From assembly GCA_026415985.1 (NCBI GenBank), contig JAOAGA010000085.1, positions 1 to 5,639 of the forward strand: a DNA stretch of 5,639 nucleotides, written 5' to 3'. The stretch comes from Pseudomonadota bacterium. GTDB taxonomy: Bacteria > CALINM01. Position 1 is the stretch's first letter; each line of letters starts with the position of its first letter. Positions 910 through 5,639 of the stretch are shown here, piece after piece. Below the pieces are notes generated by a model. It ran no database searches and was not told the origin of the DNA. It saw only the letters and a program-made list of their open reading frames with translations. The translations under genes were made by a program, and so were the position numbers.

Positions 910-938
910 CTATCCAAAGTCTATCCATATTCTATTCA
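910..938 (+). repeat. three CTATCCA-type repeats at 11-bp period
   Basis: CTATCCA starts at 910 and 921, and a variant CTATTCA at 932, so all three lie on the same face of the DNA helix. They end 47 bp before the RNA-gene fragment that marks the island junction. Arm-type integrase sites and excisionase sites next to attachment cores are often short phased direct repeats, so this may be part of an att site. The repeats are visible; the role is inferred. Confidence 0.4.
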
Positions 939-985
939 AAAGTAAAATAAAACCCAATAAATTCAATAACTTGTCTTCTGTTGTA

Positions 986-1013
986 GCGGGTTCGATTCCC
1001 GCCACCTCCACCA
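986..1013 (+). other. orphan 3' end of a tmRNA (ssrA) or tRNA-Ala gene; probable attachment-site scar
   Basis: GCGGG (986-990), TTCGATT (991-997) and CCCGC (998-1002) form a perfect T stem and T loop. They are followed by the acceptor 3' strand CACCTCC (1003-1009), discriminator A (1010) and encoded CCA (1011-1013). The acceptor strand places T at position 70 and A at 73, as in alanine-accepting RNAs (G3-U70). The GCGGG/CCCGC T stem matches that of E. coli tmRNA. No matching D arm, anticodon arm or 5' acceptor strand (GG[A/G]GGTG) precedes it, so it is not a functional gene. The tmRNA gene is a well known integration target, which makes it the preferred source, with tRNA-Ala second. Sequence left of 986 does not resemble an RNA gene, so the crossover lies near the T arm. 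Confidence 0.75.
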
Positions 1014-1021
1014 AAAGAAGA

Positions 1022-1924
1022 TTAGCCAAAAGTAATATTGTTTTTCCCTTTTCTCTTGCTTTCATACATAAACTTATCAGCTCTGTCAACTACAGATGCA
1101 ACAGAATCATTATCATAAATAATTGTTGCGCCAATTGATAAAGTTGCCTGAACCTTTTCGTTTTCAATCATAATAAAAGAGTTTTGTATAAGGTTATTTA
1201 TTTTGAATGTGATATTTTTTAAATCCTCTTCGGTTTTTAATTCAACTACCAGCACAAACTCGTCTCCTCCCCATCTTCCAACCGTATCATAAAATCTGAC
1301 ATTATTTCTTAAAGTAGAGGCAACCATAAGTAGCACTCTATCCCCGACATTATGTCCATAAGTATCATTTATAAATTTAAAGTTATCTATATCTATAAAA
1401 ATTACTCCATATGATCTGTTGTATCTTTTTGTTTCAAGTAATTTTGTTGATATTGTTAATTCTAAGAACCTTCTATTTGATAATCTTGTTAATTCATCGA
1501 GCAGAACAGCCTCTTCAAGATGTTTTACTCGTTCTTGAAGAGATTTTACATAACTTATATCTCTAAATATCTCCACAGCACCAATTACTTCATTCTTTAT
1601 ATTGAAAATTGGTGCACAATAAACCGAGACTGGTACACGTTGACCATTTTTATGATGCAAATAGACTTCTGCTTCTTGTGGTATTCCAGATTTAATTGCC
1701 CAGTCGAGAGGACAACTATCGGTGCATAATTCTTTTCCAGAATCATCAATATGTCTTAAAAGGTTATCCTTACAGTATCTCCCTAATACTTCCCTTTTTG
1801 AAAAACCTGTTAATTCAACCGCACATTTATTCCAGTACAAGATTTTTCTATATTTATCAGTGAAATAAACTCCATCATTAATGTTTTCAAGGAGTATTTT
1901 ATAAAAGCCCTCTGGAAAAATCAT
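1022..1924 (-). CDS. PAS-GGDEF diguanylate cyclase, soluble
   Basis: A 300-residue protein that should make cyclic di-GMP from two GTP in the cytoplasm. Residues 5-125 are a PAS sensor domain (DGVYFTD, then W31-N-K-C-A-V-E-L-T-G-F). A short coiled-coil linker follows (about 126-141), then DELTRLSNRR (143-152) opening the GGDEF domain. Metal and substrate residues are present: D178 in FIDIDNFK, and the full G219-G-D-E-F motif. R210-F-Y-D213 lies exactly five residues before GGDEF and is the RxxD inhibitory site for product feedback. No membrane segment or signal peptide is seen, so input comes through the PAS domain, which carries a cysteine cluster (C51, C67, C71, with H58). Met1 is preferred because it sits at the normal distance from the PAS core and the next Met is residue 200. 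No Shine-Dalgarno is visible. The stop codon lies 8 bp from the RNA-gene scar. EAL and HD-GYP domains are absent. Confidence 0.93.
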   Translation of the reverse strand: MIFPEGFYKILLENINDGVYFTDKYRKILYWNKCAVELTGFSKREVLGRYCKDNLLRHIDDSGKELCTDSCPLDWAIKSGIPQEAEVYLHHKNGQRVPVSVYCAPIFNIKNEVIGAVEIFRDISYVKSLQERVKHLEEAVLLDELTRLSNRRFLELTISTKLLETKRYNRSYGVIFIDIDNFKFINDTYGHNVGDRVLLMVASTLRNNVRFYDTVGRWGGDEFVLVVELKTEEDLKNITFKINNLIQNSFIMIENEKVQATLSIGATIIYDNDSVASVVDRADKFMYESKRKGKNNITFG

Positions 1925-1930
1925 AGAAGT

Positions 1931-1958
1931 ATTTTATATTATTTAAATTAGAAATCAA
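1931..1958 (-). promoter_or_regulatory. candidate promoter of the diguanylate cyclase gene
   Basis: On the minus strand TTGATT (1958-1953, 4 of 6 to consensus) and TAAAAT (1936-1931, 5 of 6) are separated by 16 bp. The -10 box ends 6 nt before the ATG, so transcription would start at or next to the start codon. This fits the lack of a ribosome binding site. In such AT-rich DNA chance matches are likely. The 1925-2092 spacer between the divergent genes holds no other clear structure. Confidence 0.4.
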
Positions 1959-2054
1959 GGGAAGTTATTAGATTGGGTATTAAATTTTAAAAAATTAAAA
2001 AAGTTATTAACAAAACTGTGGAACTAAAATTTTTAATGAAATTTTTTCTTTCAG

Positions 2055-2083
2055 TTGCTTTAAAAGTGTTTTAGTAATAAAAT
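2055..2083 (+). promoter_or_regulatory. candidate promoter of the ORF117-hppA unit
   Basis: TTGCTT (2055-2060) and TAAAAT (2078-2083) are separated by 17 bp, and the -10 box ends 9 nt before the ATG at 2093. No other promoter of this quality was seen before hppA, so it may serve both genes. It lies back-to-back with the diguanylate cyclase promoter. Confidence is limited by the AT-rich background. Confidence 0.4.
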
Positions 2084-2092
2084 TAAAAAATT

Positions 2093-2446
2093 ATGAAATA
2101 CTTTATATATGCATTTGCAGACCATGAAAGAAATTATTTAAAAAAAATTATTAGCATTTTTGTATTTTTATGTTTATTTTTCAATCCATCTTTCTTTACA
2201 GATTTACAAATAGATAAACCCTATGGCAACCTTAGTTATGTTGAAGATATCGTTCTTTTAAATCAAATAGATTTTTCACAATTCGACAAGGACCCCAGTA
2301 GGGTCCGTGTTGTCAGTTTAAACTCTGAAAACATTTGCCTGTTAGAAATATTTTTAAAAATTCTTTTTTGCTTTATATCAGTTACCTTTCTTTTAATAAA
2401 TCCAACCTTAACTTTTTTAGAAGATTTATTTGTAAGGGCTCCTTAG
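2093..2446 (+). CDS. hypothetical 117-residue protein with two membrane segments, upstream of hppA
   Basis: I do not recognise this protein. It has a charged N-terminus (DHERNYLKK, 10-18), a strongly hydrophobic stretch at about 19-35, a polar middle at about 36-81, a second hydrophobic stretch at about 82-103, and the tail EDLFVRAP. The likely topology is two membrane helices joined by a loop of about 45 residues. No enzyme motif is seen. Evidence that it is real: an open frame in a region otherwise without a gene, a promoter-like sequence just before its ATG, and only 63 bp to hppA on the same strand. It may be a small partner or leader for the pyrophosphatase. Against: no Shine-Dalgarno, a strong RNA hairpin within the frame (codons 65-74), and no known homologue that I can name. 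It might instead be a long structured leader of hppA. Confidence 0.5.
   Translation: MKYFIYAFADHERNYLKKIISIFVFLCLFFNPSFFTDLQIDKPYGNLSYVEDIVLLNQIDFSQFDKDPSRVRVVSLNSENICLLEIFLKILFCFISVTFLLINPTLTFLEDLFVRAP
2285..2314 (+). other. strong stem-loop within ORF117
   Basis: GGACCC (2290-2295) and GGGTCC (2301-2306) make a perfect GC-rich stem around the loop CAGTA. Outer arms GACAA (2285-2289) and TTGTC (2310-2314) add five more pairs across a 3-nt bulge (GTG). It stands out against the surrounding AT-rich sequence and is followed at once by the perfect palindrome AGTTTAAACT (2315-2324). There is no T-run, so it is not an intrinsic terminator. It could slow ribosomes, act as an RNA processing or stability element, or be a small palindromic insertion. 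Confidence 0.5.
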
Positions 2447-2504
2447 ATAACAAACCAAAAGACCATCTACACCTTATCTTTTTAAAATCTTAATTTAAAG
2501 GAGC
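2438..2504 (+). promoter_or_regulatory. hppA ribosome binding site and possible masking stem
   Basis: AAAGGAG (2497-2503) lies 6 nt before the hppA ATG at 2510 and is the best ribosome binding site in the window together with that at 5086. AAGGAGC (2498-2504) is perfectly complementary to GCTCCTT (2438-2444), and two further G-T pairs extend the stem outwards (2437-2505, 2436-2506). GCTCCTT runs into the stop codon of ORF117 (2444-2446). Ribosomes finishing ORF117 would open the stem and free the hppA site, the classic arrangement for translational coupling. The pairing is visible; its regulatory use is inferred. Confidence 0.5.
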
Positions 2505-2509
2505 TTAAT

Positions 2510-4957
2510 ATGCAGATATTGCTTTATGCATTTTTTTCTGTTTTTTCAATTGTTTTTACATCTTTTGGCTTAGCCTATGCAAGCGAAGCGGATATAAAAA
2601 TCCCTGAACTGGATAATGTTATTTTTCCTTTTTTTCATGGTACCCATGGTTTGGTCATTATGTATTCGGGTCTTATTGTTTGTTTGATAGGTATTTTATT
2701 CGCAATTATAAAATATATGCAGATTAAAAAAATACCGGTTCATAGAGAAATGGCAAAGGTTTCAAATATCATCTGGGAAACCTGTAAATCCTATTTAGCT
2801 CAGCAAGGAAAATTTCTTATAGTCCTTTGGGTGCTTATAGCGGTTTGTATTTATTACTACTTTGGTTTTCTTGAACACAAATCAGTGATCGATCTGGTTA
2901 TAATCCTTGCAAGTTCTATTCTTGGTATTCTTGGTTCCTATGGAGTTGCATGGTTTGGAATGAGATTAAATACTTTGGCAAATTCAAGGACAGCTTTTGC
3001 CTCTCTCCAGAATAAGCCAGTAAAAGTTGTTACAATTCCTATGCATTCAGGTATGAGTGTTGGGCTTTTACTTGTTAGTATAGAGTTATTCTTTATGATT
3101 TGCATCCTCATATTTCTGAAAGACCTTGCAGGTGCATGTTTTATTGGTTTTGCTATTGGTGAATCACTTGGTGCAAGCGCCCTTAGAATTGCTGGTGGTA
3201 TATTTACAAAAATTGCTGACATAGGCGCAGACTTAATGAAAATAGTATTTAAGTTACCCGAAGACGATCCCAAAAACCCTGGTGTAATAGCGGACTGTAC
3301 AGGCGACAACGCTGGGGATAGCGTTGGTCCTACAGCAGATGGTTTTGAAACTTATGGGGTGACAGGTGTTGCATTAATAGCATTTCTTGCAACTGCTTTT
3401 GGAGATAAACCTATAACCTCTATGCTTATCATATGGATATTTGCTATGAGGATTATAATGATTTTCACGTCGATAGTTTCTTACTTTATAAATTACGGTA
3501 TTACAAATGCTCTATATGGCAATTCAAAAAAGTTTAACTTCGAACAACCTTTGACAAATCTTGTTATGTTAACATCTGTGGTATCAATAATAGCAACCTT
3601 TGTCTCCAGTTATTTGCTAATAGGCGATGTGCAAGGCATACCATCATCTCTTTGGTGGGAATTATCGGTAATAATAAGCTGTGGAACTGCTGCTGGCGCA
3701 CTAATTCCTGAATTCACTAAAGTTTTTACAAGCACCTCATCAAGACATGTTAGAGAGGTTGTTACATCTTCTGAGCATGGAGGTGCTTCTCTAAACATAC
3801 TTTCTGGTTTTGTTGCTGGCAACTTTTCAGGATTCTGGCAGGGATTTCTGATACTTGCTCTTATGTTTATTTCCTATCTTGTGTCTCAAATGAGTGGTGT
3901 TACTCTTATCGTAAATTCATTAGGTATACCTTCATTTTCAGCCCCGATCTTTGCATTCGGCTTAGTTGCTTTTGGGTTTTTAGGAATGGGACCTGTAACA
4001 ATCTGTGTTGATAGCTTTGGTCCAGTTTCTGATAATGCACAGTCCGTATATGAGCTTTCGAGAATAGAATCACTACCAAATATAAGAGAAGAGATAAAAA
4101 GAGACTTTGGATTTGATCCTGATTTCGATAAGGCCAAGGAGTATCTTGAAGAAGCCGATGGAGCAGGAAATACATTTAAAGCTACAGCTAAGCCAGTTCT
4201 TATTGGAACTGCTGTTGTTGGAGCAACAACTATGGTATTTGGGATAATAATGGTGCTATCCCAGTACTTGAAAATGACTAATCCAAGCATAACAATCGTT
4301 GAAAAATTAAGTATAGTCCAGCCAGAAATCATATTTGGATTACTAATGGGTGGAGCCACGATTTATTGGTTCACAGGGGCATCTACACAAGCGGTTGTAT
4401 CAGGTGCATATAAAGCTGTAGTATTTATAAAAAACAACATAAACCTGAATATCGAAACCGCCTCAATCAAGGATAGTAAGGAAGTAGTAAAGATATGCAC
4501 CCAGTATGCTCAAAGGGGAATGATAAACATCTTTATTGCGATTTTCTTCCTTGCTCTTGCCCTTTCGTTTTTCAATCCCTATTTCTTTATAGGCTATCTA
4601 ATAAGCATTGCCTTCTTTGGACTTTATCAGGCAATATTTATGGCAAACTCTGGTGGTGCATGGGACAATGCCAAAAAAATAGTAGAAGTAGAGCTCAAGA
4701 AAAAGGGGACTGATCTACATTCTGCAACGGTTGTTGGTGACACAGTTGGTGATCCTTTCAAAGACACCTCTTCTGTTTCCATGAACCCTGTAATAAAATT
4801 CACCACGCTCTTTGGTCTTCTTGCAACAGAGATTGCAATAACCATGCACGGCAATGGCTTAAAGATAATGATAGGAACAGCTTTTCTATTAATAGCCCTA
4901 TTTTTTATTTATCGTTCCTTTTATGGAATGAGAATAGAGGAAAACTTAGAACTATAA
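2510..4957 (+). CDS. hppA: membrane-bound ion-pumping pyrophosphatase (divergent, K+-independent H+-PPase type)
   Basis: An 815-residue protein rich in membrane helices. It hydrolyses pyrophosphate at the cytoplasmic face and pumps H+ (or Na+) outward. The binding residues of the family are visible: K234-x-x-D237-x-x-x-D241, PEDDPKNPGVIAD (250-262), D262/D266/D270, D277 and E280 (gate position), D501 with D508-N509, N554/K561, D719-N-A-K722, and D744/D748/K751-D752 with K763. Lys557 in GNTFKAT occupies the position where lysine gives K+ independence, while Ala560 stands where Thr is usual in that class. Departures from canonical sequence are clear: GDNAGDSVGPTADGFETYGV in place of the common GDNVGDCAGMAADLFESYA, TSSVSMN in place of TSGPSLN, and an enlarged acidic loop (about 519-553). 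These fit the described divergent Na+-regulated H+-PPase group. Residues 1-24 look like a cleavable signal peptide ending AYA. The start is fixed by a strong Shine-Dalgarno. The pumped ion is inferred, not shown. Confidence 0.95.
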   Translation: MQILLYAFFSVFSIVFTSFGLAYASEADIKIPELDNVIFPFFHGTHGLVIMYSGLIVCLIGILFAIIKYMQIKKIPVHREMAKVSNIIWETCKSYLAQQGKFLIVLWVLIAVCIYYYFGFLEHKSVIDLVIILASSILGILGSYGVAWFGMRLNTLANSRTAFASLQNKPVKVVTIPMHSGMSVGLLLVSIELFFMICILIFLKDLAGACFIGFAIGESLGASALRIAGGIFTKIADIGADLMKIVFKLPEDDPKNPGVIADCTGDNAGDSVGPTADGFETYGVTGVALIAFLATAFGDKPITSMLIIWIFAMRIIMIFTSIVSYFINYGITNALYGNSKKFNFEQPLTNLVMLTSVVSIIATFVSSYLLIGDVQGIPSSLWWELSVIISCGTAAGALIPEFTKVFTSTSSRHVREVVTSSEHGGASLNILSGFVAGNFSGFWQGFLILALMFISYLVSQMSGVTLIVNSLGIPSFSAPIFAFGLVAFGFLGMGPVTICVDSFGPVSDNAQSVYELSRIESLPNIREEIKRDFGFDPDFDKAKEYLEEADGAGNTFKATAKPVLIGTAVVGATTMVFGIIMVLSQYLKMTNPSITIVEKLSIVQPEIIFGLLMGGATIYWFTGASTQAVVSGAYKAVVFIKNNINLNIETASIKDSKEVVKICTQYAQRGMINIFIAIFFLALALSFFNPYFFIGYLISIAFFGLYQAIFMANSGGAWDNAKKIVEVELKKKGTDLHSATVVGDTVGDPFKDTSSVSMNPVIKFTTLFGLLATEIAITMHGNGLKIMIGTAFLLIALFFIYRSFYGMRIEENLEL

Positions 4958-4962
4958 AAAAT

Positions 4963-5001
4963 AATAATTGGCTTCCTGCAAAAATCAGGAAGCCAATTAT
5001 T
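4963..5001 (+). terminator. terminator hairpin after hppA
   Basis: AATAATTGGCTTCCTG (4963-4978) and its exact complement (4986-5001) form a perfect 16-bp stem with a 7-nt loop, beginning five bases after the hppA stop codon. The plus-strand tail CTCTTTCG is only moderately T-rich. On the minus strand the stem is followed by a better T-tract (TTATTTTTTATAG), so it may also stop antisense transcription. It separates hppA from the protease gene. Confidence 0.8.
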
Positions 5002-5044
5002 CTCTTTCGATCTTAGTTTGCAACACTTTTCATATCTTCAATAT

Positions 5045-5073
5045 TTGCAAAGCAGAATAGTTTTTGATAAGAT
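5045..5073 (+). promoter_or_regulatory. candidate promoter of the aspartic protease gene
   Basis: TTGCAA (5045-5050) and TAAGAT (5068-5073) are separated by 17 bp, each 4 of 6 to consensus. The start would fall near 5080, leaving a short leader that contains AGGAG (5086-5090) 7 nt before the ATG. TTTGCAA also occurs at 5017-5023, 27 bp upstream. Its position after a terminator supports a separate transcription unit. Confidence 0.4.
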
Positions 5074-5097
5074 TAATCAAAAAACAGGAGAGCTTAT

Positions 5098-5639
5098 ATG
5101 CAGACTTTTCCTATAATAAAAGAAAAAGGTCATATAATCATAGATATTGATGGCAAACGGGCTCTTATAGACACCGGTGCACCATTTACCTTTGGATCAG
5201 GTGATTTCCAACTTTGCGGAAAATCTTACACACCACTTACAAACTTTATGGGTAATACAATTGAAAGCATATGCAAACTTTCGGGGATGAATTTCGACAT
5301 ACTCATTGGTAATGACGTATTAAGCAAGCAAAATATCAGAATTCGCTGGAAAGAGGGTTTTATTGACTTTGGTGATGATATAGATGAATATGATTACGTT
5401 CAACAATATAACAATTTTATGGGAGTTATCGTTTTTCCTATTAAAATTTCAGGGCAAGACACTAATGCCATTCTTGATACCGGTGCTTTCATTTCATATA
5501 TTTCAGATGATTTAGTTTTAGACAGAGAAAAAAGCGAAGAAATCGAAGACTTTCATCCCTTAGCTGGAAGATATAAAACGGATATTTACATAATCCCTGT
5601 CTGCTTAAATGTAAGAGACGTGGAACTACAATTCGGAAC
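5098..5639 (+). CDS. retropepsin-like (clan AA) aspartic protease with two DTG motifs, 3' end missing
   Basis: The frame is open from the ATG at 5098 to the window edge (180 residues); AGGAG at 5086-5090 fixes the start. The first lobe has the catalytic motif A22-L-I-D25-T-G-A and the downstream flap-closing motif F66-D-I-L-I-G71-N-D-V-L, both typical of retropepsin-like domains. A second, matching motif follows: A124-I-L-D127-T-G-A, preceded by the strand FPIKISG. The partner ILxG.D motif of the second lobe would lie past the edge. Retropepsin-type chains usually give one aspartate each and act as dimers; here one chain holds both, so a pepsin-like intramolecular site is possible. No signal peptide or membrane segment precedes the first lobe, so the protein is probably cytoplasmic, unusual for aspartic proteases. 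The substrate is unknown. No link to hppA is evident, since a terminator lies between them. A non-proteolytic role cannot be excluded. Confidence 0.8.
   Translation, partial: MQTFPIIKEKGHIIIDIDGKRALIDTGAPFTFGSGDFQLCGKSYTPLTNFMGNTIESICKLSGMNFDILIGNDVLSKQNIRIRWKEGFIDFGDDIDEYDYVQQYNNFMGVIVFPIKISGQDTNAILDTGAFISYISDDLVLDREKSEEIEDFHPLAGRYKTDIYIIPVCLNVRDVELQFG

Follow-up and report, generated by a model that had tools for sequence, protein, structure and literature searches.

We found that positions 910 to 1,016 of the window (forward strand) form, with a probability of about 90%, a right attachment site (attR), left where tyrosine-integrase recombination inserted an integrative element into the 3' end of a tmRNA gene, with the element, which bears an AbiE operon, on the left and host DNA with a diguanylate cyclase (DGC) gene on the right. 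The window, 5,639 nucleotides long, is the whole of contig C145 of assembly G000 (1.57 Mb, 161 contigs, 84% complete). A P arm, an IHF-like site and the core follow one another rightwards up to the host DNA, an order that identifies an attR and places the AbiE-bearing element on the left. The attR of a tmRNA-integrated element is an ordinary and well-known kind of feature; this member is new, its arm signature is informative and its AbiE cargo is unusually small. The predicted integrase-binding repeats are unusually clear and are common to distantly related hot-spring bacteria.

A displaced tmRNA 3' end in the window

The core of the attR is a tmRNA 3' end consisting of the T arm, the acceptor strand and CCA (986 to 1,013, forward strand; GCGGGTTCGATTCCCGCCACCTCCACCA). 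Using cmscan, these 28 nucleotides were aligned to the last 28 positions of the tmRNA family RF00023 (17.6 bits, E 0.0004, below the gathering threshold of 47), and the remaining 340-odd positions of the family were absent around them in the Infernal search. ARAGORN called no tRNA or tmRNA anywhere in the window, and with neither program did we find a tag reading frame or a 5' acceptor half at these positions. This confirmed the original prediction of an RNA 3' end lacking its 5' half, and no complete structured RNA gene including the fragment, which would have spoken against that prediction, was found by ARAGORN or cmscan. A structured match of 28 bases led us to dismiss a chance origin.

Positions 986 to 1,016 were identical at 31 of 31 bases to the tmRNA 3' end of G002, another genome from the same family. 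The exact 28-mer occurred once in assembly G000, in the window itself, and the single other match with at most two mismatches was the end of an intact tmRNA (G000:C127:748-1096), the only one in the assembly, which lies between smpB and metK. The two differing bases form one compensatory T-stem pair (GTGGG/CCCAC vs GCGGG/CCCGC), so this tmRNA is not an identical twin of the fragment, and no integrase was found beside it. The expected twin in the same genome, identical over the 28 bases and next to an integrase gene, was therefore not recovered. Viral contigs with the exact 28-mer were left out as support; 11 of them had no ARAGORN tmRNA, and about nine of these appeared by eye to contain real tmRNAs that had gone uncalled.

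The prediction had named a tmRNA or a tRNA-Ala as the source, and U70 and A73 are found in both alike. A tRNA-Ala gene is a highly improbable source. One locus, G045:C2, does contain a tRNA-Ala(CGC) that is accompanied by a truncated integrase and lies about 9 kb from a tmRNA-like fragment, but the tRNA-Ala 3' ends read clearly differ from the fragment (GGGGGTTCGACTCCCCCACCGTCC for CGC and GTGGGTTCGAATCCCTTCACCTCC for TGC), and the relatives of the AbiE operon stand behind tmRNA genes. All 106 tRNAs that were called in these loci had more than six mismatches to the 28-mer, whereas tmRNAs were at zero to two mismatches; this comparison of 3' ends ruled out the tRNA-Ala origin and left the tmRNA part of the prediction standing. 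The chance that the fragment is part of a functional RNA gene, for example a permuted tmRNA with a nearby 5' half, is negligible. A permuted-tmRNA match starting at 986 was returned by cmscan below threshold (19.4 bits, E 0.7, gathering threshold 47), but its second half falls inside the DGC coding region and its pairs are broken, normal one-piece tmRNAs are present in G000, G002 and the Thermodesulfovibrionaceae, and the sequence upstream of the fragment is an att P arm common to other orphan ends. We therefore rejected a permuted tmRNA, and equally a complete one, which ARAGORN did not call.

Predicted arm-type repeats flanking the core

Upstream of the core, the P arm (910 to 942, forward strand) contains three direct 11-bp repeats, CTATCCAAAGT, CTATCCATATT and CTATTCAAAAG, which share the motif CTATYC, start at 910, 921 and 932 with a spacing of 11 bp, and are predicted integrase arm-type sites at -76, -65 and -54 from the core. 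Three in-register copies were found in 0 of 2000 shuffled windows. Between arm and core lies an IHF-like site (961 to 973, forward strand; ATTCAATAACTTG, one mismatch to WATCAANNNNTTR), which is present at -25 in all four P-arm loci; the background of such sites is 1.5 per kb per strand.

The extent of the attR is based on an alignment of the orphan tmRNA ends (the window, L081, G058 and G045:C2) with intact tmRNAs. The left arm of the window (931 to 985) recurs ahead of the orphan ends in L081, G058 and G045:C2, three Thermodesulfovibrionaceae loci, in all of which the -54 copy of the repeat is conserved. The orphan ends have CTATCC-type repeats at -54, reaching -65 in G058 and -76 in the window. 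The G058 orphan end is located 7.7 kb behind the G058 tmRNA, and that of G045:C2 between type I restriction-modification (RM) genes and ilvC, on a different contig from the G045 tmRNA.

A second arm (P', CTATCCGAACTCTATCCGG) was found behind the intact tmRNAs of G002, contig C85, G050 and G052, with a repeat at +67 and, in three of the four, another at +78; in G048 the repeat is at +79. The displaced tail in L081 and G058 is flanked by both arms. Repeats are spaced 11 bp apart throughout the loci, with a consensus near CTATCCGAACT. Direct repeats therefore flank the core on both sides (-54/-65/-76 and +67/+78), which is the layout of a lambda-type tyrosine-integrase site. An IHF-like site also occurs near +41 at six loci, including G058 (+39), mostly with one mismatch and in AT-rich DNA; together with those at -25, these sites are only suggestive of IHF binding between arms and core. 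The P-arm repeats, the same arm at other orphan ends and the P' arm behind intact tmRNAs support the earlier placement of an element to the left of an island junction.

A profile of the right arm, trained without G052 and G048, picked up both of these held-out loci (83.6 and 62.3 bits, respectively). In 1.47 Mb of fetched sequence, part of it redundant, the exact repeat doublet had only five distinct contexts, each a tmRNA or AbiE end, and because it marked only such ends in this sequence, the signature should pick out the element family. Three element-arm patterns had no match in IMG/VR, and a looser pattern matched two IMG/VR viral contigs, neither with a tmRNA core or an adjoining integrase. 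The result is an exact, testable element end together with a signature, in which CTATCC repeats with an 11-bp spacing lie 54 bp upstream of the first base of the tmRNA tail or 67 bp downstream of it. This signature should reveal defence-carrying elements in Thermodesulfovibrionaceae and neighbours that integrase-based island finders do not detect.

The AbiE operon and its relatives

The left part of the window encodes, on the reverse strand, the 5' part of abiEii (1 to 149; toxin, nucleotidyltransferase; 94% DNA identity to locus L065 of G002), which is cut by the contig end, and the overlapping antitoxin gene abiEi (137 to 724, 195 aa; PADLOC AbiEi, 4.5e-24). The AbiEi protein matched the NCBIfam model TAA_AbiEi weakly (3e-6, below the cut-off) and no Pfam model above the cut-off. 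The full-length AbiEii orthologue in L065 has 222 aa and matched PF08843 (4.7e-21) and PADLOC AbiEii (4e-103). The predicted proteins thus form the adjacent pair of AbiEi antitoxin and AbiEii nucleotidyltransferase of a type IV toxin-antitoxin system, and the operon that had been proposed on the left is upheld, the same operon being found behind intact tmRNAs elsewhere. Upstream of abiEi we found an inverted repeat, ATTAACA-N4-TGTTAAT (737 to 754), within a stretch (727 to 771) that is 100% conserved in G002. AbiEi antitoxins are known to be autoregulatory, which makes this repeat a candidate AbiEi operator.

The AbiE sequence of the window shares 94% DNA identity over 771 bp with the copy in G002 (JAOABK010000018.1, MAG SKW176), which is located 450 bp behind an intact tmRNA. 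In the Thermodesulfovibrio MAGs SKW4 and SKYB9, a decayed AbiE operon lies directly behind the intact tmRNA (89-90% over 304 bp). A second SKYB9 locus, L081, has an intact AbiE operon (90%) and carries on its opposite side a copy of window positions 931 to 1,016, consisting of 55 bp of upstream sequence and a degraded tmRNA tail. A tmRNA 3' end adjoins AbiE in all five close copies. The AbiE genes are more alike than the smpB genes: AbiE identity is 87% between G002 and SKYB9, compared with smpB genes of G002 and SKW4 that could not be aligned as DNA, and 94% between the window and G002, compared with 75% for smpB between G000 and G002. At the level of sequence comparison, this shows that AbiE has been transferred horizontally between phyla. 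No AbiEi relatives were found in IMG/VR by tblastn, and when the rest of G000 was searched for the absent left portion of the element, only 27 bp at the contig end matched.

The right flank and the assignment of the contig

To the right of the core lies an intact PAS-GGDEF DGC gene on the reverse strand (1,022 to 1,924; PF00990, 5e-43). As had been noted, it is only 8 bp away: its stop codon (1,022 to 1,024) is 8 bases from CCA. The stop is natural, and a homologue on G000:C82 (74% amino acid identity) has equal length and the same end codon position. We infer that the DGC side is chromosomal.

The composition of this flank pointed to another genome. The tetranucleotide distance of 1,022 to 5,639 was 0.157 to G002 and 0.225 to G000, compared with an average of 0.14 +/- 0.02 for chunks of a genome against their own; in a control, the classifier was correct for 35 of 35 G000 chunks and 17 of 17 G002 chunks. 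Codon usage was less decisive: that of the DGC gene and of a protease open reading frame was closer to G002, while that of the membrane pyrophosphatase gene hppA was about equally near both. The DGC gene has a GC3 of 0.226 vs a G000 mean of 0.335. These values suggest that contig C145 is probably mis-binned and derives from an unsampled relative of G002. A close copy of the DGC gene or of the window hppA was absent from G002, and the DGC/hppA side had no synteny with G001 or G002. If the contig is mis-binned, the tmRNA of the true host may be outside the assembly, and mis-binning would also account for a fragment that is exact to the G002 tmRNA yet changed relative to that of G000.

In the comparison with relatives lacking the island that had been proposed, no clean empty site was found among 16 Thermodesulfovibrionaceae genomes, and none was found for the DGC side. 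Gene order behind the tmRNA differs in each Thermodesulfovibrionaceae genome looked at, so synteny was of no help in confirming the insertion. Gene content there also differed in every Thermodesulfovibrionaceae genome read (L205, L208, L209, L211), with smpB conserved upstream where that flank was read. The region behind the tmRNA is an apparent hotspot of insertion or rearrangement.

Larger elements with the same arms

The same arms were found at elements with other cargo, whose gene names were read from translations, some being tested against models: type III RM, RadC, PIN and MntA/HepT-like genes in G058, type I RM genes in G045, and McrBC and type III CRISPR genes in contig C85. Positions 1 to 208 of L066 (G002:C85) are a tmRNA 3' part that is 92% identical to the Thermodesulfovibrio tmRNA although it lies inside the G002 bin, and are followed by the P' arm and the McrBC-like and type III CRISPR genes. 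Most probably, this contig belongs to Thermodesulfovibrio, was mis-binned and carries a defence island at its tmRNA. In G045:C2 (L196/L204), type I RM genes lie between the tRNA-Ala(CGC) with the truncated integrase and a tmRNA-type attR beside ilvC.

Proposed model of integration and size of the AbiE unit

We infer the type and action of the integrase, the direction of integration and the mobility of the AbiE unit. The integrase would bind the 11-bp arm repeats as well as the core, which is the T arm of the tmRNA. After integration, the left end (attL) would consist of an intact tmRNA with the P' arm behind it, and the tmRNA tail, preceded by the P arm, would be displaced to the right end (attR, as in the window). 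The tmRNA loci of G002 and Thermodesulfovibrio would be the attL counterparts, and the intact tmRNA of the window's own element would lie beyond the left end of the contig, at a distance of approximately 0.7-1.0 kb. In the simplest model, the loci represent tmRNA-specific elements of one family, which includes integrase-less relics or units resembling cis-mobilizable elements (CIME-like), either mobilised in trans or decayed.

No integrase was found in the window, nor beside AbiE in G002, L081, L084 or L085, by motif scan and inspection of open reading frames; the sole integrase near AbiE or tmRNA in the loci scanned was the truncated one adjoining tRNA-Ala in G045:C2. The unit in L081 measures 1670 bp from core to P arm, and with the 76 bp of the window it comes to 1746 bp (approximately 1.75 kb), a composite of the two loci that contains abiEii and abiEi and no integrase. 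A unit of this size has no room for an integrase and would need one in trans, so the AbiE element is probably integrase-less and would be CIME-like. Each AbiE locus keeps one full att end, and both ends were complete in no locus read. More tentatively, and with doubt outweighing confidence, we propose that the element is a minimal cassette of approximately 1.75 kb in which the AbiE operon alone lies between complete lambda-type arms and is moved in trans by a tmRNA-specific tyrosine integrase, its arms being common to larger islands with defence genes (type I and III restriction, McrBC, type III CRISPR) in two or more phyla of hot-spring bacteria. If the integrase-less unit does move, it would be very small for its type, with an addiction module as its entire cargo. 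An account of the relation between L081 and the window as a permuted 1.75-kb circle was dropped for a simpler one, in which att sites with arm repeats stand in tandem or have been displaced.

The same loci can be read differently. The fragment could be a decayed scar, an old attR that was moved off its tmRNA by rearrangement inside G000 and is a mobile unit no longer. The highly variable gene order behind the tmRNA fits such rearrangement, as does the separation in G000 of the intact tmRNA (C127, by metK) from the fragment (C145); in G045, the attR-like end with type I RM genes is likewise on another contig than the tmRNA. However, the closer compositional match of the right flank to G002 means that this separation may be a binning artefact, and the core and P arm of the window are intact, whereas the isolated copy in L081 is degraded. 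We consider a decayed scar possible but rather unlikely. Transfer of AbiE together with the tmRNA end through homologous recombination or an insertion sequence (IS), with no integrase involved, is very unlikely: it would fit a stretch between tmRNA and AbiE in G002 that recurs elsewhere in G041 as an apparent IS remnant, and an rve-type transposase that adjoins AbiE in G045:C3, but it leaves unexplained why arm repeats flank the core on either side at constant distances, with varied cargo and in different phyla. IS inverted repeats or target duplications bounding the unit at 910 and at its left end were not seen. Integration at the tmRNA 3' end by a tyrosine integrase remains the preferred reading.

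Comparison with known systems

The predicted site resembles that of the Cluster K1 mycobacteriophages CrimD and Angelica, in which the attP core is the 24-bp 3' end of the tmRNA, used by a tyrosine integrase with arm-type sites (PMC3203893). In both cases the core lies at the extreme tmRNA 3' end with arm-type repeats on both sides, but the arm sites are inverted across the core in the phages and direct on both sides here, and the phages are whole with an integrase adjoining attP, whereas the window element has AbiE cargo and no integrase was seen (PMC3203893). The ssrA islands of Dehalococcoides similarly stand in tandem behind ssrA, are bounded by repeats of its 3' end and include members without integration genes that were proposed to be cis-mobilizable; they differ in having the serine recombinase DsiB and reductive dehalogenase genes, while the lambda-type arm repeats here suggest a tyrosine integrase, and defence or toxin-antitoxin genes make up the cargo (PMC3146451, PMC2764846).

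Like the tmRNA islands of the Islander type, which have the regenerated tDNA at one end and a displaced fragment at the other, the element has a displaced tmRNA 3' fragment at its distal end (986 to 1,013); Islander, however, requires a single replicon to carry both the integrase and the intact twin, and contig C145 has neither (PMC4383910). The window therefore behaves as an element end rather than being an autonomous island under that definition, which calls for the integrase. As in CIMEs, att ends are kept and integration genes are absent, but each AbiE locus has one intact end, the unit is very small and mobilisation here is putative (PMC5704250). AbiE is also cargo of the integrative element ICESsuHN105, where it stabilises a large conjugative element, while here it is nearly the sole gene content between the att arms (PMC11062541).

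Other features of the loci

An open reading frame in L081 (11,667 to 12,095), which adjoins a tRNA-Arg(TCT), had no Pfam match; by eye, its start was Cas6-like and its end resembled a frameshifted integrase C-terminus. At approximately 1,915 to 2,007, L084 contains a repeat of 60-100 bp that is present dozens of times in Thermodesulfovibrionaceae genomes (G050, G052, G054). The remainder of the window encodes a long membrane pyrophosphatase (hppA, 2,510 to 4,957, 815 aa; NCBIfam NF001950, 1309 bits), whose homologues in two sister genomes are distant and partly broken. Behind hppA lies a near-perfect inverted repeat (4,967 to 5,001; AATTGGCTTCCTG...CAGGAAGCCAATT) that is likely a bidirectional terminator. 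It is followed by a retropepsin-like aspartyl protease domain protein with two DTGA-type motifs (IDTGAPF and LDTGAFI), encoded at 5,098 to 5,637 and cut by the contig end.
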